Below are positions 7,169-40,468 of a DNA stretch of 40,468 bases, piece after piece. The stretch is from NCBI GenBank assembly GCA_903944135.1, contig CAJAQL010000034.1, positions 1 through 40,468 of the forward strand. Direction: 5' to 3'. This DNA comes from an uncultured Parcubacteria group bacterium. Its GTDB lineage: Bacteria; Patescibacteriota; Minisyncoccia; UBA6257; 2-01-FULL-56-20. Numbering within the stretch: the first letter of the stretch is position 1; each line of letters starts with the position of its first letter. The notes under the pieces were generated by a model that saw nothing but the letters and a program-made list of their open reading frames with translations, did not search any database and was not told where the DNA came from. The translations under genes were made by a program, and so were the position numbers.

Positions 7169-7431
7169 TCGAGTTGATCGGTGCGAAGCATCAGATCGTG
7201 AAAATGAAGAGCTTGATTCCTTTATCCATCCGTGGATTCCCCTCAAAGCTGCCCAAAATTCCAAATGGGCATGACATAGTCTGTGAGCTTGACCACGGCG
7301 ACGGGGAACGCATATTCACCTGTAAATCTCTCAAGGATATGCAAGAGCTCTACCGCGAATATGCCCTCGGACACGCCGTCAGCATTTCGTGGTATCACAC
7401 AGATGTTTTCAGGGATGCCTCGACATCATAG
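7165..7431 (+). CDS. hypothetical protein (88 aa)
   Basis: Overlaps stop of the preceding gene (ATGA); SD-like gggagg upstream. Confidence 0.55.
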   Translation: MIELIGAKHQIVKMKSLIPLSIRGFPSKLPKIPNGHDIVCELDHGDGERIFTCKSLKDMQELYREYALGHAVSISWYHTDVFRDASTS

Positions 7432-7475
7432 CCGCGCATCCGTTCATTCACTGCTTGTATCATTTGATACGAACC

Positions 7476-7503
7476 AAGAACCCTTAAGCAAGGTTCTTTT
7501 TTT
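7476..7503 (+). terminator. Rho-independent terminator
   Basis: AAGAACC...GGTTCTT stem followed by T-tract. Confidence 0.7.
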
Positions 7504-7591
7504 ATGCCAAATCCGCAGTTTCCGAAAATCATTTTTGCCTCGTGCTATACTGATGTTAATAAAGGAGTTCAAAGGTGGATTCTAAAAATCT

Positions 7592-10500
7592 ATGCATTCA
7601 TTTTCATCTTTAAAATCATTCTCTCGTTCGCTGACAATTCTTTTTGTCGGAGGGATATCCATGGGGATATTTCTTTTTTTCACGCCGCCGGCCCATGCAG
7701 CTTCTTGGTATGATGCTGCTTGGCCTTATCGCAAAGCGATCACGATCAATAATGCAAAGATTAGCCAGACCGGCGGCACGGTTCTATCCAATTTCCCTGT
7801 TTTGGTCTCTCTCACCGACCCTGATCTTAAATATGCCGGAAGCGGTGGCAGAGTGGCATCATCCACGGGGGCCGATATTGTCTTCACCGACTCAGACGGC
7901 AGAACCGCGTTGAACTACGAGATAGAGAACTATTCTTCGTCCACGGGAAATCTCGTGGCCTGGGTGAATGTGCCGATATTGTCGCCAGCCGTGAGCCATA
8001 CTATTTATGCCTATTTCGGCGATGCCACCGCACCGACGGAAAGCGTGGCGACCGAGGAGGCAACCTGGGACAGCGATTTTATCAGTGTTTATCATCTTGG
8101 GAACATCACGGATCTTAGAACCAACGATTCGACTGGAAATTATCCGGGCATGAACAATGGAGCGGCTGTTGTGACGACGGGCGAAGTTTTTGGTGGTGCA
8201 GGTTTTAACGGGAGCAGCACATATATTTACAATAATTCTTTTGTCGAACCGACCAACTCGGCGACACTTTCGGCATGGGCGAAATTGACCGATGCGAGCG
8301 ATAACTGGAATACGATCGCCGATGTGGATTATGGCTATTTGCAGCTGCAGCTTGCCGCTCGGTCCGGTGCAGGGGATATTAGTTGGCTCGTTTCCCATCC
8401 CGGAGGAAGCAGTCTCTGTAAAATAGGCGACGCGGGTATTCTGAACCAGTGGCATCTCTATACTGCTACCTATGACAGCTCGAACAATGCTTTATCGGTA
8501 TATGTCGATGGGAACAAACTCGGCAGTTGCGCCATGACAGGAAGTCCGAATTTTTCAGGAAATTCAGCACTCACGATCGGGGCGATCTACAAAGGATCCG
8601 GAGGCGCCTATTTTAATGGCGCGATGGATGAGGTTGAAGCGTCCGAGGTGGCTCGATCCGCAGACTGGATCAATACGGAATACAACGATCAGAGCGATCC
8701 CTCAGCCTTTTATTCTGTGGGAGTCCTCGAACGATACGCTTCATCGCCGATCATCAATTCTTTTACGGCAAGTCCCGCCTACATCGGCCACGGAGGAAGC
8801 TCGACTCTTTCCTGGAACGTGACCGGTACGATAACTTCGATAGCTATCACGCCGGGCGTATTTACTTCTTCTTTAAGTTCAGGATCTATGACGGTGACGC
8901 CGGGCGGGACGACGGTTTACACGCTTACGGCAACGAACAATAACGGCTCGGCAACGGAAAATACCGCGATTACACTTGGGTCAACTCCGCCCACGGTTCC
9001 GAGTGGCTTAAGCGTAGTGACCAGTACGCCCTCAACTATCGCTCTTTCTTGGCCGGCTTCGACGGGAGCGGGGACTGCTGTCGCTGGATACGACATTTAT
9101 CGCAATGGTGCAAAGATCGCATCGATAGGTCCCGGGACATATATCGACACCGCCATCAATTCACCGGCGTACGTCTACTATCTTGATACCGGTCTCACGG
9201 CCGGGACGGCATATGTCTATGCGGTCGACGCCTACGATGCTACCGACGATGTTTCGGCGCAGTCTTTCGGCATCCGTGCAGCGACATTGAGCCAGACGGT
9301 TCCTTCGATATCTGAATGGAGCGCGGCGTTTTGGATGAGCGGCAGCGGCAGCAGTTCCACGCCGCCGATCTCCGCAATAGACTGGTCATCAATGACCCAC
9401 ATTATCCATGGACCCGCCATTCCTTGGGCGAACGGAACACTCGATCTTACTACCTATTCCATTACGAGCGATGCTCCGGCGCTTGTGAGCGCGGCCCATG
9501 CGCACAACGTAAAGGTTCTCTTGTCTATTATGTCGGGGTGGTCGGCTCAGGATGATTTTGCGGATGCCGCGAACAACAACATGACTACCCTTGTTGGTAA
9601 TATTGTGAACGCGGTAAATACCTATGGATATGACGGAGTAGATATCGATTGGGAAAATACCGCAAGCAGTATGATAAACTGGACATCAATGACGACCCTG
9701 ATCTCGGATCTGCGTGCCGCTCTCGGCACAAAACTTCTCACCGCGGAAGCGGATGGCGGAGATCAATCCCATTGGGCGCCATTATCCGGTGATCTGGATC
9801 GGGTCAATGTCATGGTCTATGATATGGCCGCTTCGTGGGAACCGTTCACTTGGTACGATTCTCCTCTCTATGGGATCAAGAGCGCCGTTTCGTTGGATTC
9901 ATATAAGAATGATTTCGTGAACGCAGGGATCCCTGTGTCGAAAATAGATTTAGGATTGCCGTTCTATGGATACGCGGTGCGGGGCGGATGTCAGACGCTC
10001 GGATGCGCCGCGGGGATCTCGGCGCCTTTGCAGATGTGGACAACGCCACCGACATGGATACCGGAAAATGAGGCAAGGCTTGCGGGTAATTATGATCTGT
10101 CTTCCTCGAATCCCGATTGGCATTGGGATATTTACGCGCATGAACCATATCTCAGCATCAATGAGCAGGACAATGCGAGCGATACATTCGTGACTTTTGA
10201 AAATCAACAATCTCTGACGGACAAGATCGATTATATAAAATCAAACGATCTCGGCGGGTGGAGCATATGGAACATCAACAACGATTATTTTCCGAGTGAA
10301 CCGGCAACGGCTCAAATATATCCGCTCTCTCATGCTGTCGCGCTTGAGTTGGCTAGTGCTCCAGCCGCGCCGTCCTCTGTGGTTATCGCTCCATTGCAAA
10401 CCGGCAGCGGTTCTACGGTCTCTGCACCGATCTCCTCCGTGGCGACTTCTTCTGTTTCTTCTCCGTCTTCTTCTATTATGGCAGGCATGACTTCGTCACA

Positions 10501-10822
10501 GCTGGAAAGTCTCCTTCTTTCGCTCGAGTCGGAACTTCAAACCTTGCATGAGGAAAGTTCTTCCTCTTCTCCGTCTTCCTCGGTTTTTACGCGCGATCTT
10601 TCCTCCGGCATGACGGGTGCCGATGTGAAGCAATTACAGCTTTTTCTCATTTCCCGAAATATCGGGCCTGCCGCGAAAAAACTCGCCGCCAACGGCGCGA
10701 CCATGAATTTCGGATCTCTTACAAAAGCTGCTCTTATGGAGTTTCAGGTGTCTGCGCATATTACTCCCGCAGCGGGCTATTTCGGACCTGCTACGAGAGC
10801 ATATGTGAATGCGCAGGATTAG
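7592..10822 (+). CDS. secreted multidomain GH18 (chitinase-like) protein: DUF2341 + LamG-like + FnIII + GH18 + Ser-rich linker + peptidoglycan-binding-like domain
   Basis: WYDAAWPYRKAITI (DUF2341); DEVEASEVARSADWINTEYNDQS (LamG tail); GYDGVDIDWE (GH18 DGxDxDxE); C-terminal LSSGMTGADVKQLQLFL...FGSLTKAALMEFQ. Confidence 0.9.
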   Translation: MHSFSSLKSFSRSLTILFVGGISMGIFLFFTPPAHAASWYDAAWPYRKAITINNAKISQTGGTVLSNFPVLVSLTDPDLKYAGSGGRVASSTGADIVFTDSDGRTALNYEIENYSSSTGNLVAWVNVPILSPAVSHTIYAYFGDATAPTESVATEEATWDSDFISVYHLGNITDLRTNDSTGNYPGMNNGAAVVTTGEVFGGAGFNGSSTYIYNNSFVEPTNSATLSAWAKLTDASDNWNTIADVDYGYLQLQLAARSGAGDISWLVSHPGGSSLCKIGDAGILNQWHLYTATYDSSNNALSVYVDGNKLGSCAMTGSPNFSGNSALTIGAIYKGSGGAYFNGAMDEVEASEVARSADWINTEYNDQSDPSAFYSVGVLERYASSPIINSFTASPAYIGHGGSSTLSWNVTGTITSIAITPGVFTSSLSSGSMTVTPGGTTVYTLTATNNNGSATENTAITLGSTPPTVPSGLSVVTSTPSTIALSWPASTGAGTAVAGYDIYRNGAKIASIGPGTYIDTAINSPAYVYYLDTGLTAGTAYVYAVDAYDATDDVSAQSFGIRAATLSQTVPSISEWSAAFWMSGSGSSSTPPISAIDWSSMTHIIHGPAIPWANGTLDLTTYSITSDAPALVSAAHAHNVKVLLSIMSGWSAQDDFADAANNNMTTLVGNIVNAVNTYGYDGVDIDWENTASSMINWTSMTTLISDLRAALGTKLLTAEADGGDQSHWAPLSGDLDRVNVMVYDMAASWEPFTWYDSPLYGIKSAVSLDSYKNDFVNAGIPVSKIDLGLPFYGYAVRGGCQTLGCAAGISAPLQMWTTPPTWIPENEARLAGNYDLSSSNPDWHWDIYAHEPYLSINEQDNASDTFVTFENQQSLTDKIDYIKSNDLGGWSIWNINNDYFPSEPATAQIYPLSHAVALELASAPAAPSSVVIAPLQTGSGSTVSAPISSVATSSVSSPSSSIMAGMTSSQLESLLLSLESELQTLHEESSSSSPSSSVFTRDLSSGMTGADVKQLQLFLISRNIGPAAKKLAANGATMNFGSLTKAALMEFQVSAHITPAAGYFGPATRAYVNAQD

Positions 10823-25309: not shown

Positions 25310-25383
25310 CGCGGGAGGGTTGGGAAAGGTTTTCCGGGGAGCCCCATAAGCTCCCGAAGCAAGTCCGAGTCTTGCCCCCGCAA
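25310..25383 (+). tRNA. probable tRNA-fMet (CAT), possibly degenerate
   Basis: 74 nt; acceptor CGCGGGA/CCCCGCA with initiator-type C1-A72 mismatch; anticodon arm GGAGC-CCCATAA-GCTCC; T-arm GCAAG-TCCGAGT-CTTGC; weak D-arm TTGG/CCGG. Confidence 0.55.
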
Positions 25384-25485
25384 CACTCAAGTTTCAATCT
25401 TTAAAGACCCACGGGCCTCATTTTTGCTACATTTTCAAAATCGGTTTTTCGCAAAAAACGGGCCACCCCGACAGGACTCGGACTT
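25361..25485 (+). repeat. R1 copy 1 (125 bp), begins in the tRNA T-arm; terminal inverted repeats
   Basis: AAGTCCGAGTCTTG...CAGGACTCGGACTT; about 95% identical to copy 2 at 26360. Confidence 0.95.
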
Positions 25486-25583: not shown

Positions 25584-26243
25584 ATGAAATTGATTTTTTG
25601 TGAGTCTCTTGACCGTGATATATGGAATTGGCAAACCGCAGTAATGGCAACGAGTTACGGCATTGATTGGAAAAAATTTCTTCCAGAAGGAGTTACTGTT
25701 GAAAATGTTGGCGATAAGAAATTTTTAAGACAGTATCTCGAAAAAGAATTTTACGATACTCGTAAGGTTTCTGATTTCAAACAATGGCTCGAGAAGAACG
25801 TTTTGGGCAATCAAGTCGAGGGGGACCTTATATCATTAATGCAAAAACCTTTGCGTTCCGAATCGGTGAAAATTTATCTCACTACATTTCATCGTGCTCC
25901 TTATGATCCGGACGAGCCATCGCTTTTCCTTTTCGATCGTTCGCCGCGCGAGCGTTGCGCCACCACAATCTATCACGAGATAATGCATTTTCTTTTTCAT
26001 TGGTATTACTGGGAACAATGCGAAGCGGCGGGATTTTCGAATCAGGAAATACATGATCTGAAAGAATCACTGACGGTACTCTTGAATCCTATTTTAAAAA
26101 AACGAAATTTGCCTTTGGACAATGGTTATCCGATGCATCAAGAACTAAGGAAGAAATGGACGGCGCTCTACGAAGAAAATCCTAACTTTCCAGTATTTTT
26201 AGAAAAGGCGATTCCCTTATACGAAGAGTCACTCGCGAAATAG
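25584..26243 (+). CDS. HExxH zinc peptidase-like protein (cargo of unit A)
   Basis: TTIYHEIMHFLFHWYYWEQCE; related in motif to 14828..15565. Confidence 0.7.
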   Translation: MKLIFCESLDRDIWNWQTAVMATSYGIDWKKFLPEGVTVENVGDKKFLRQYLEKEFYDTRKVSDFKQWLEKNVLGNQVEGDLISLMQKPLRSESVKIYLTTFHRAPYDPDEPSLFLFDRSPRERCATTIYHEIMHFLFHWYYWEQCEAAGFSNQEIHDLKESLTVLLNPILKKRNLPLDNGYPMHQELRKKWTALYEENPNFPVFLEKAIPLYEESLAK

Positions 26244-26297: not shown

Positions 26298-26359
26298 ATT
26301 CCCTGTGGCACTAGGTCAGCCGAGCCGGAGCTCAAATAATGCTTGTACTGTCTAGACGA
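26298..26359 (+). repeat. H element copy A, immediately before R1 copy 2
   Basis: ATTCCCTGTGGCACTAGGTCAGCCGAGCCGGAGCTCAAATAATGCTTGTACTGTCTAGACGA; only 2 mismatches to copy B at 29057. Confidence 0.95.
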
Positions 26360-26484
26360 AAGTCCGAGTCTTGCCCCCGCAACACGCAAGTTTCAATCTT
26401 TAAAGACCCACAGGCCTCATTTTTGTTACATTTTCAAAATCGGTTTTTTGCAAAAAACGGGCCACCCCAATAGGACTCGGACTT
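26360..26484 (+). repeat. R1 copy 2 (125 bp)
   Basis: Same length as copy 1; about six substitutions by eye. Confidence 0.95.
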
Positions 26485-26557: not shown

Positions 26558-26707
26558 ATGAATGAATCCCTTGTTCTTTCCGCTAATCAACAGGAAGAGG
26601 AAATGGAGTTGACGAAAGTCACTTCTGACCTCAACCAGGAACTCGGCCGTTGTATCCCGCAATGTGGCCCGGATTGCTCGCCGGCCTGTAGCCCGTTTGT
26701 CGACTGA
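26558..26707 (+). CDS. candidate RiPP precursor peptide (49 aa) with C-terminal (CxPx)4
   Basis: ggaggggtg SD before ATG; MNESLVLSANQQEEEMELTKVTSDLNQELGRCIPQCGPDCSPACSPFVD; next to a PqqD-like/rSAM/SPASM gene. Confidence 0.75.
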   Translation: MNESLVLSANQQEEEMELTKVTSDLNQELGRCIPQCGPDCSPACSPFVD

Positions 26708-26726
26708 AACAATCCGGCGCTTGATG

Positions 26727-26766
26727 AGACGCCTTCTCTCTTGAGGGAAGGCGTCTTTACTTTTTT
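26727..26766. terminator. terminator between convergent precursor and peptidase genes
   Basis: Perfect 10-bp stem AGACGCCTTC/GAAGGCGTCT followed by ttactttttt. Confidence 0.75.
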
Positions 26767-27574
26767 AATGCCACTCCGCCCATTCGGCAATCTTGGACAT
26801 CGGTCTTAAAAGTTTTTCTTCTTTATATTTCTTTCGCATCCGTTTTTCAAACTGATAGATATTTTCATTGGGATCTTTGAGATAGTTTTTCCAGTCGGGG
26901 AGAAGTTTTTTATTCAGATTAACGAGATATTTGTGACCCAAAAGAGCGCCGCCTTCTTTGAAATATGCCTTGCCGCCGTTGAGGCGGATCCGTAGTTCAT
27001 TATCACAGGAAAGCTCTATTAGAGAATGCATTAAATGCGGCGCACACGGAATATCTTTCGTGATGTGATGCATTATTTCATGCCAGAGATAGACCGTTGC
27101 ATAATTCTTCCATTCATCAGGATGAGACCATGCAATGGCATTGTCCTCGATATATGATCTTCCGCGTGAGAGGCGTGGATGTGAAATGTATACTGTGATT
27201 TGCTTATCGATCTTCGAGAAATCGATTTTTGTTATATTGCTGAGATCACGGATGGAAGTTGTATAGTTTTTGTTCCATTGCTTCTCCACGGTTATGGCAT
27301 AGCGTTCGGCTTCACGAAATATCTTTTTGAAATCGTTCGTTTTATAGACCAAGAAAAGATCTTTATTGAGGTTTTTTGTTGCCATGGAAAGTCCCTTAGC
27401 GATGCCATGTTCGATAACAAGCGGTTCCAAATTTTGAGAAAGAACCTGATAAAGATCGGAATTTGTCTCAAAAACCTTCTTTTTAATTCTTAAAAAAGGA
27501 AGGTGATCCGAATAGCTTTTAAGGATATGTTGGAGGATAAAATCTTTATCTACAACGAACTTTAAAGTAATCAT
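26765..27574 (-). CDS. HExxH zinc metallopeptidase-like protein
   Basis: ATVYLWHEIMHHITKD motif; convergent to precursor, divergent from maturase. Confidence 0.7.
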   Translation of the reverse strand: MITLKFVVDKDFILQHILKSYSDHLPFLRIKKKVFETNSDLYQVLSQNLEPLVIEHGIAKGLSMATKNLNKDLFLVYKTNDFKKIFREAERYAITVEKQWNKNYTTSIRDLSNITKIDFSKIDKQITVYISHPRLSRGRSYIEDNAIAWSHPDEWKNYATVYLWHEIMHHITKDIPCAPHLMHSLIELSCDNELRIRLNGGKAYFKEGGALLGHKYLVNLNKKLLPDWKNYLKDPNENIYQFEKRMRKKYKEEKLLRPMSKIAEWAEWH

Positions 27575-27611
27575 AAGGATAATTGTGGTAGGTTTCTTTT
27601 TAAATGTCTAA

Positions 27612-27640
27612 TTGACAAATATATAAATTTAGGTTATTTA
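27612..27640 (+). promoter_or_regulatory. candidate promoter of the radical SAM gene
   Basis: TTGACAAATATATAAATTTAGGTTATTTA; aligns with TTGACAAAATATAAGCTTAAAGTTGCTATTT at 26501. Confidence 0.45.
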
Positions 27641-27673
27641 TTGATCGGATACTTCAAAATTCAGGAGGACGAA

Positions 27674-28951
27674 ATGAGAACGGAACAGGCATTTGCTCTT
27701 GCGGAAAAAGTTGTATTGGTATCTGGCATAAAGCGAGGTGCTCTTTATGACTTGCGGAATGGCGCTGTCTATTCCGTTAACGAACATTCAAAAGCGTTTC
27801 TTCTTGCATGCGAAAACGCGCGGTCTCTTTCCGATATATTTTCTTCAACGTCTCGGTTTTCTCCCGGTCGATGCATGACTTATCTCGATAAGCTTGTTGC
27901 AAACAACCTGGGAAGATATTGCAACGTTGGAGAAGTGTCGGGAAGGATTAACCCAGCGATGACATCACCGGGGCTTGAATTTGCCTGGCTGGAAGTCACC
28001 GCTGGCCGCAATCTTCGTTGCGTGCATTGCTATGAACAGGGATGCGCATCTCTAATCGGTTCTGAAAAGATGCAGATAGCCGATTGGCGAAGGATTATCA
28101 ATGAGTTGAGTTGCCTCGGTTGTAAAAGATTGCAATTCATCGGTGGCGAACCGCTTTTGTTGGGAGATGACCTTGTTTCTCTCATCGAGTACGCGCGGGA
28201 ATCTAGATTCACCTTCATTGAAGTCTTTACCAATGCAACACTGCTCACTGAAAAATTTATTTCAGCATTTGTGACCAACGATGTGCACGTAGCAATTTCT
28301 TTTTACGGAGAAACACCCCAAACACACGAACTGGTAACGCTTTCTCCTGGAAGTCACAAAAAGACACTGGAGGGAATCAAGCGGGTCATCGATGCGGGCT
28401 GTGATCTGAGGGTTGCCGTGGTGGGTATGCGTCAGAACGAATCTGAATGTGAACAAACGATTGCCTACCTGAAAAAAATCGGCGTGAAGCATGTGAAATT
28501 CGACGTTGTGCGCCCAAGCGGGAGAGGTGCATCGGTTGATGTCATTTCCGAGAAGTTGCTTAAGTCAGTGCTACAAAGTAAACCTGCTTTTCCGCCCTGC
28601 ACCGAAGATACTTTTCTACGGAGAATGCGTGGACACAATTGCTTTCTCACGAAGATTTGCGTGAGTTCCAATGGGGCGGTATATCCATGCATCATGGAGC
28701 GACGCGTCAGTTACGGAAATGTCCTCCAAGATTCCCTTTCGAACATTCTGAGTGGTGATAAGGCGATAGGTGCTCAAGGGTTATCGAAAGACAAGATAAC
28801 AACTTGCCGTGACTGTGAATATCGCTACGCTTGTTCAGATTGCAGACCAAGGGCCGTGGTGGGAGAAGAAAATTCTTTTACCGCGAAACCAAAAGAATGT
28901 CTCTATGATCCCTATTCTGGAATTTGGGGAATTGTTGCCTCTGAAGAGTAA
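27674..28951 (+). CDS. radical SAM/SPASM peptide maturase with N-terminal PqqD-like (RRE) domain
   Basis: SD aggagg; GALYDLRNGAVYSVNEHSKAFL (PqqD-like); RNLRCVHCY, GGEPLLL; SPASM CVSSNGAVYPCIMERRVSYGNV...CRDCEYRYACSDCRP. Confidence 0.88.
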   Translation: MRTEQAFALAEKVVLVSGIKRGALYDLRNGAVYSVNEHSKAFLLACENARSLSDIFSSTSRFSPGRCMTYLDKLVANNLGRYCNVGEVSGRINPAMTSPGLEFAWLEVTAGRNLRCVHCYEQGCASLIGSEKMQIADWRRIINELSCLGCKRLQFIGGEPLLLGDDLVSLIEYARESRFTFIEVFTNATLLTEKFISAFVTNDVHVAISFYGETPQTHELVTLSPGSHKKTLEGIKRVIDAGCDLRVAVVGMRQNESECEQTIAYLKKIGVKHVKFDVVRPSGRGASVDVISEKLLKSVLQSKPAFPPCTEDTFLRRMRGHNCFLTKICVSSNGAVYPCIMERRVSYGNVLQDSLSNILSGDKAIGAQGLSKDKITTCRDCEYRYACSDCRPRAVVGEENSFTAKPKECLYDPYSGIWGIVASEE

Positions 28952-29056: not shown

Positions 29057-29118
29057 ATTCCCTATGGCGCTAGGTCAGCCGAGCCGGAGCTCAAATAATG
29101 CTTGTACTGTCTAGACGA
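29057..29118 (+). repeat. H element copy B
   Basis: ATTCCCTATGGCGCTAGGTCAGCCGAGCCGGAGCTCAAATAATGCTTGTACTGTCTAGACGA. Confidence 0.95.
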
Positions 29119-29149
29119 AAGTCCGAGTCTTGTCGCCCCAACACTCAAG
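29119..29149 (+). repeat. partial R1 copy 3 (left end only)
   Basis: AAGTCCGAGTCTTGtcgCCCCaACACTCAAG matches the left ~30 bp of R1. Confidence 0.85.
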
Positions 29150-29150
29150 G

Positions 29151-29606
29151 TTAGGAGGTAGAGCAAGACCGACCCCCGTCGGGATGTTTTTTGGCGCATG
29201 ATTTGCAGAGGCCATAGAATTCCAATGTGTGCTGTCGTATCTCTGCAAAGTGCTTGGAATCGTGGAGGACAGTATCTTGTACCTCTTTGACCCAGCAATG
29301 ATGTACGTCTTCGATCTTGCCACAACCGAGACAGATAATATGGTGATGCTCGACGATGTTTGCAAGCTCGTAGTGTGCGTGATTGTGGCGCAGATCGATC
29401 GGTTTGATCACCCCTTTTCCTTTTAAAGATTTTAATGTTCGATAAACAGTAGCCTGGTCCGTATCAGAGGGAAGTTCATTAATGATTTCCTGAGCGCTTA
29501 TCGGATTTTTATTTTTCTTGAAAACCTCGAGAATGGCGATCCGGGAAGGAGTCGCCTTATAGCCGCTTTTTCTCAAGAGTGTTCGGAGATCGTCTTTCTT
29601 TTGCAT
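29151..29606 (-). CDS. Fur family transcriptional regulator
   Basis: ATPSRIAILEVF, DQATVYRTLKSLKGKGVI, HHHIICLGCGKIEDV. Confidence 0.92.
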   Translation of the reverse strand: MQKKDDLRTLLRKSGYKATPSRIAILEVFKKNKNPISAQEIINELPSDTDQATVYRTLKSLKGKGVIKPIDLRHNHAHYELANIVEHHHIICLGCGKIEDVHHCWVKEVQDTVLHDSKHFAEIRQHTLEFYGLCKSCAKKHPDGGRSCSTS

Positions 29607-36810: not shown

Positions 36811-37033
36811 GCCTAGTCGTTTACCCCTTCATTCAGGTAGTCACTAGCTCTTTTCGGAGTGACTACCATCCTAACTCAAAATCACCCCGTTATCATTGGC
36901 TTTCTTGCGTTGCCGCGATCTGAAATCCAATGCCGACTTCACTTCGCTCCGGCCTGCTGTCCTCCGCTCCGTTCATTGTCCTCGGCCTTCTCTCCCGTCC
37001 GTCTTTTGTTGTGGCTCGTTGGTGGGGGTGAAA
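36811..37033 (+). repeat. left 223-bp inverted repeat
   Basis: Reverse complement of 40246-40468 with one mismatch found by eye. Confidence 0.97.
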
Positions 37034-40245: not shown

Positions 40246-40468
40246 TTTCACCCCCACCAACGAGCCACAACAAAAGACGGACGGGAGAGAAGGCCGAGGA
40301 CAATGAACGGAGCGGAGGACAGCAGGCCGGAGCGGAGTGAAGTCGGCATTGGATTTCAGATCGCGGCAACGCAAGAAAGCCAATGATAACGGGGTGATTT
40401 TGAGTTAGGATGGTAGTCACTCCGAAAAGAGCTAGTGACTACCTGAATGAAGGGGTAAACGACTAGGC
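40246..40468 (-). repeat. right 223-bp inverted repeat (ends at window end)
   Basis: Reverse complement of 36811-37033. Confidence 0.97.

Follow-up and report, generated by a model that had tools for sequence, protein, structure and literature searches.

The described systems closest to the locus analysed here are the ranthipeptide maturases of the CteB-thermocellin type, which share with it an N-terminal RRE, a radical SAM core, SPASM auxiliary clusters and an adjacent Cys-rich precursor. Ranthipeptides are recognized by a thioether to a β or γ carbon, and sactipeptides by one to the α carbon. CteB (5wgg) is the best structural match to our maturase, nearly full length, and also matches by profile, but identity in the structural alignment is only ∼17%, and the precursors beside our enzymes follow a C-x-P rule with free spacing and no set acceptor residue (Asp or Thr, for example). 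The small-ring sactipeptides offer a chemical model for a ring formed within a single C-x-P unit: enteropeptins carry a six-membered thiomorpholine and suisactin nine-membered sactionine rings, and a model of its A-ring spans three residues (PMC12395415). Unlike these, the CxP precursors show no sequence-level membership, contain many repeated units and have Pro two residues after Cys. In TvgA/TvgB, a short repeated motif (TVGG) is likewise modified locally, unit by unit, but there the reaction is Val cyclopropanation rather than one at a Cys-centred motif (PMC9062424). HxsA of the His-Xaa-Ser system resembles the deltaproteobacterial CxP precursors in that a repeat target is fused to a peptidoglycan-binding domain; the CxP loci differ by their C-x-P repeat, a single radical SAM enzyme and the lack of any Hxs model above cut-off. 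The CXXX-repeat system (precursor model TIGR04117, maturase model TIGR04115) likewise has a Cys-repeat target beside a radical SAM enzyme. Membership in this family was rejected because neither model reached its cut-off, the precursor model in 0/10 genomes and the maturase model in 0/6, the window genome giving no TIGR04115 match at E ≤ 0.001. Whereas the SCIFF rule asks for six Cys in forty-five residues, the core of our precursor has four, all in CxP units. NCBIfam had no match to this precursor, no Pfam or NCBIfam precursor model covers it, and the best 25 NCBIfam families of radical SAM maturase equivalogs scored far below their cut-offs on the enzymes of the window, Sporomusa and Jorgensenbacteria. 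In the open-access literature, searched for CxPx, C-x-P and CXXX repeats and for RiPPs in Patescibacteria, we found no description of the family, subscription journals being outside the search. The initial annotation likewise recognized no described family with the strict CxPx tetrad. The locus thus appears to be a radical SAM RiPP system of a kind already known, and its own C-x-P substrate rule is what seems new.

The window, that is, the whole stretch of 40,468 nucleotides analysed, contains the three genes that the initial annotation had named, for a precursor, an HExxH protein and a radical SAM enzyme (Table 1). We think it likely that they represent a small RiPP cassette of a widespread, uncharacterized family, in which the RRE would bind the leader and the radical SAM/SPASM enzyme would act on each C-x-P unit.

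Table 1. Features of the CxP locus and its flanks, in positions of the window
Feature	Position	Strand	Remark
Repeat, right part, upstream of single-gene unit (HExxH ORF 25584-26243)	25356..25485		94-95% identical
Repeat, full-length copy, upstream of precursor	26298..26484		three copies in whole genome only
Possible N-terminal extension of precursor (49-aa form)	26558..26602	+	own Shine-Dalgarno, in frame
Precursor peptide gene, conserved 34-aa form	26603..26707	+	MELTKVTSDLNQELGR-CIPQCGPDCSPACSPFVD, four C-x-P units
HExxH (type A) putative metallopeptidase	26765..27574	-	motif HEIMHH; patescibacterial accessory
RRE-radical SAM-SPASM maturase, CxP family	27674..28951	+	Pfam Radical_SAM and SPASM above cut-off
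N-terminal PqqD/RRE-like domain, residues 1-83	27674..27922	+	model, hhalign, profile versus CteB
Codon CGC (Arg112), replaces first Cys of CxxxCxxC	28007..28009	+	alignment A1
SPASM domain	28640..28900	+	invariant columns of alignment A1; Pfam SPASM 326-382
Repeat, left part, downstream of maturase	29057..29152		93% identical

The maturase has 425 residues when read from ATG 27674 (alternative start, TTG 27641). Its AlphaFold2 model (pLDDT 90.5) shows an N-terminal domain of a β-sheet and three helices and finds CteB, SuiB, SkfB and TigE as its best PDB matches, nearly full length, with EpeE also among the matches. The alignment of the family profile to CteB starts at profile position 20, and the profile of the N-terminal domain aligns by hhalign (79%) to the Pfam-PqqD domain of two Latescibacterota maturases (L040 and L043). 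The Pfam PqqD model itself gave no score on the N-terminal domain of the window enzyme, and a search of PDB sequences with the profile of this domain alone returned nothing useful. All seven conserved SPASM Cys are present (C323, C339, C378, C381, C387, C390 and C409), and across alignment A1 no Cys beyond the radical SAM and SPASM motifs is invariant. About 45 full-length relatives, mostly 33–42% identical, align from the N-terminal domain through the C terminus. The PqqD-like, radical SAM and SPASM features noted at the outset thus hold, the latter two by Pfam, and an RRE-radical SAM-SPASM architecture is supported by structure and profile comparison. At their C termini, L040 and L043 carry an additional PqqD domain (for L040, Pfam E 4e-19) and thus probably have two leader-binding domains.

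A scan of one genome per species (85,462 species) yielded 54 loci. A CxP ORF, defined as one with at least three clustered C-x-P units, lay within 1 kb of the maturase gene at 35 of the 47 full-length homologous loci, always on the same strand, compared with three matches in the 522 kb farther out and an ORF with three clustered CxP in only 1/940 shuffled flanks. Some of the 12 loci without a strict adjacent CxP ORF are explained by the end of a contig, by fewer or more widely spaced units, or by an ORF lying farther away. Within Patescibacteria, a profile search of 380 genomes separated 11 members, including that of the window (E<1e-119), cleanly from all other SPASM enzymes (E ≥1e-43). Outside the window, nine of the ten members lie within 1.5 kb of an ORF with four or more C-x-P units, whereas none of 15 other radical SAM/SPASM loci of the same phylum has such an ORF this close (Fisher p=5e-6). 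In Sporomusales, the enzyme is present in 27/28 genomes with a CxP ORF at 24/29 loci. Given this co-localization in the survey across species, in Patescibacteria and in Sporomusales, precursor and enzyme belong together; the first refuting case set by the initial annotation, homologous enzymes that never neighbour a Cys-rich small ORF, did not arise.

Relatives occur in Bacillota, Bacteroidota, Chlamydiota, Krumholzibacteriota, Latescibacterota, deltaproteobacterial lineages and other Patescibacteria, with related pairs in at least seven named phyla. Maturase phylogeny departs from that of the species: the window enzyme groups, with moderate support, with sequences from Jorgensenbacteria, Marinilabiliaceae, Chlamydiota and clostridia. 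No transporter was constant across the loci, and searches of plasmid and viral collections returned only distant radical SAM matches that lack the N-terminal domain.

Among the 625 core Cys counted in 59 distinct precursors, 614 belong to a C-x-P unit, a fraction biased upward because precursors were chosen for having three CxP units. The rule holds even in precursors with up to 26 units. Residues +1 and +3 of Cys vary freely, and Cys-Cys spacing ranges from 1 to 24 residues, mostly 4–7. Because both the spacing and these positions vary, the conserved unit is, judged from these cores, the local C-x-P and not a four-residue period; the strict CxPx tetrad proposed initially was not borne out. 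Other Cys-rich products were seen near some maturases. In place of CxP repeats, an Anaerolineae locus (L047) has a tandem pair of small Cys-rich proteins with a different pattern (CSCNSHCACDSFC), encoded 1.0–1.6 kb upstream of the maturase, and at L055 two unusual CxP proteins, with CWPWRGGGGG and CWPRRRPPCSP repeats, are found ∼3.2–3.8 kb downstream of the maturase start.

Leader type varies from clade to clade. The window shares an E-L-x-K-V-T-like motif with Jorgensenbacteria, Marinilabiliaceae and Krumholzibacteriota; other Patescibacteria have (P)xIxLVT, Sporomusales RPKWxxPEM-acidic and some clostridia Nif11 with a double Gly. Three Sporomusales genomes (L127, L128 and L129) contain a second, weaker-scoring maturase subfamily, surrounded by several double-Gly precursors of the Nif11 type (GCQPSWSPCEPK type). 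In two deltaproteobacterial genomes, the precursor has a Tat-like SRRGFIK start and a PG_binding_1 domain (match computed on the L016 protein); these CxP precursors, at L016 and L061 (∼1.27 kb after match start), have 14–17 CxP units, and their layout, which is similar to that of HxsA, suggests export in folded form and attachment to the wall.

What the CxP proteins do may be read from the same survey. They could be structural or metal-binding proteins of the envelope, stabilized by the modification, rather than secreted signals or bacteriocins, a reading to which we give slightly less than even weight. It is favoured by the near-universal presence in Sporomusales, where many loci adjoin what we take, judging from the sequences, to be the housekeeping genes tig-clpP-clpX-lon, by the deltaproteobacterial fusions of a Tat-like start with PG_binding_1, and by the repeats of up to 26 units. 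However, Nif11 double-Gly leaders of the kind typical for exported RiPPs occur in some clades, and the window core has only four units. For Sporomusales, a physiological or envelope function appears more likely than an antibiotic one because of the near-universal presence there.

The HExxH protein of the window has no Pfam or NCBIfam match, and Pfam gave only sub-threshold matches to both HExxH types that we distinguish. A moderate model (pLDDT 75, four sequences) had no match in a PDB fold search. Type A, to which the window protein belongs, is 66% identical in L062, a locus from the same taxonomic family, and 35–37% in L013 and L058; it occurs at nine patescibacterial loci, with type B instead at five. 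Together, an HExxH gene lies beside 14/17 patescibacterial CxP loci, compared with 5/15 control radical SAM loci (p=0.01), so that the link is modest, since control loci also have such neighbours. It lies beside none of 26 Sporomusales loci and is therefore, on its distribution, an accessory of the patescibacterial lineage outside the core system. Hence, of the single maturation system proposed for all three genes, the pairing of precursor and maturase stood and the inclusion of the HExxH protein in its core did not. In Patescibacteria, the protein is plausibly the leader protease. That it is instead a lineage-specific passenger, or an immunity or regulatory factor, is a tenable but less probable reading: the Sporomusales loci do without it, a third of the unrelated radical SAM genes have one nearby and neither Pfam nor NCBIfam assigns it to a family, but two different types hold the same place at patescibacterial loci, and the 66% identity was kept in L062 despite a broken maturase there.

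A second HExxH ORF of the window (25584-26243), weakly Peptidase_M78-like below cut-off, is the sole gene of a neighbouring repeat-bounded unit. A distant relative of it adjoins the CxP cassette of L077 (2815-3423). Comparison gave no support for a paralogous relationship with the type A protein.

As to the reaction, the architecture supports binding of a leader with an (I/M)E-L-x-K-V-T-like motif by the N-terminal RRE of the maturase. The radical SAM/SPASM enzyme would then act on each C-x-P unit separately. Most likely, it would join the Cys sulfur to a backbone carbon of either the next residue or Pro, giving a 6- or 9-membered thioether ring with a loss of 2 Da per unit, and in Patescibacteria the HExxH protein would probably remove the leader. 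Unlike the genes, the family, the co-localization, the conservation of Cys and Pro and the architecture, which are read directly from the data, the reaction, the order of these steps and the role as protease are ones that we infer. Since C-x-P is fixed while the Cys-Cys spacing varies, the modification is probably confined to a single unit. By analogy with the small-ring sactipeptides, we lean slightly towards a thioether from Cys to x or Pro, although, with x varying so widely, modification of only the Cys or only the Pro would also fit. Alternatively, the enzyme might alter Cys, x or Pro of the core without any crosslink, for instance by epimerization, oxidation or thiolation, and the Cys would later serve in metal binding or disulfides. 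Such reactions are catalysed by SPASM enzymes, EpeE is among the PDB matches, and only Cys and Pro are conserved with the spacing of units irrelevant. Nonetheless, we consider this the less likely reading, as the best matches that include the N-terminal domain are maturases forming thioether or C–C crosslinks (CteB, SuiB, SkfB and TigE), and there is no invariant extra Cys that could act as the hydrogen donor of an epimerase. Overall, the initial RiPP reading gained strong support from the pairing and the RRE; its crosslink stays conditional, and the maturase of the window itself is probably dead.

This last point, which the initial annotation had missed, rests on one residue. The window motif reads TAGRNLRCVHC (RxxxCxxC), whereas homologues have the complete CxxxCxxC (alignment of 36 homologues), so that the family carries the radical SAM motif and the window copy lacks it. 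The other near-invariant positions are almost all intact, a conservative D219E aside. Enzymes of this superfamily should be inactive once a ligand of the SAM-binding cluster is lost, and with Arg in place of the first cluster Cys the window maturase is predicted to be inactive. No second member of the maturase family was found in the 856-kb genome of the window. In a genome from the same taxonomic family (G036, locus L062), the maturase is reduced to a C-terminal remnant of the last ∼45 codons beside intact precursor and HExxH genes. A sequencing or assembly error at codon 112, leaving the real enzyme active, seems doubtful. One T-to-C change would suffice, and the ORF is open with nearly all other near-invariant positions preserved, but CGC is the codon as assembled and the relative has lost its maturase too. 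Unless such an error occurred, the two losses were probably recent and separate, because the precursor cores have changed mainly silently and the precursor and HExxH genes of G036 are intact. The CxP system thus appears to be decaying in the taxonomic family of the window.

The precursor has nevertheless been kept. Its core is CIPQ-CGPD-CSPA-CSPF-VD, and relatives include a near-twin in L062 (MKMELIKVTPDRGVTSKACIPQCGPDCQPACIPA). Between the window and L062 cores, 11 codons differ, eight of them synonymously; all four Cys codons are altered silently, and the three amino-acid changes fall at non-Cys, non-Pro positions. Judged from these codons, the precursor is under purifying selection, and the annotation's own refuting case, a CxPx ORF that is not conserved, did not arise. 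A chance Cys/Pro-rich ORF, to which its shortness and the preference of GC-rich codons for Pro might point, is refuted by the shuffled flanks, the conservation and the synonymous pattern and can be set aside with near certainty. The start codon is ambiguous: ATG 26558, with GGAGG 7 nt upstream, gives the 49-aa form described initially, while a second in-frame ATG at 26603 gives a 34-aa form. Conservation among relatives starts exactly at the latter (MELxKVT), and the upstream extension showed none. The strong Shine-Dalgarno sequence and the 49-aa ORF are present, but the shorter form is also a candidate. Its conserved leader comprises ∼16 aa, with a MEL.KVT motif common to L013, L014 and L015.

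The three-gene cassette is delimited by the full copy and the left part of a repeat (Table 1). The order of the copies (right part, full, left part) resembles attL, attP and attR of two tandem insertions and is as expected for site-specific events of this kind. The right part, which folds into a long hairpin, has terminal inverted repeats of about 16 bp. Near the window repeats there is no recombinase gene, and tRNA and Rfam scans of them gave nothing. Cassettes at L036 (116 bp), L042 (52 bp) and L058 likewise lie between direct repeats, whose sequences are unrelated. Those of L058, a Paceibacterota cassette, are 147 bp long (7376-7522 and 10405-10551), 99% identical, and contain a perfect 40-nt palindrome. 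Horizontal spread of the CxP cassette appears likely. Elsewhere in the window, a 223-bp perfect inverted repeat (36811-37033 and 40246-40468) reaches the contig end, possibly an assembly feature or the end of a mobile element.

Tentatively, these data may describe a new RiPP class in which each C-x-P would form a small thioether ring, so that rigid chains of up to 26 rings would result. Such chains might be a conserved envelope or housekeeping component of Sporomusales; the class would have spread among phyla and been reduced to four rings in Patescibacteria. The family is one of modified peptides for which Pfam and NCBIfam have no precursor model; it spans at least seven named phyla and includes nearly all genomes examined from Sporomusales, an order that can be cultured. 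The simple C-x-P substrate rule makes its chemistry directly testable, and use in peptide stapling is possible. A physiological role, if true, would be an uncommon one among Cys-rich radical SAM peptides.
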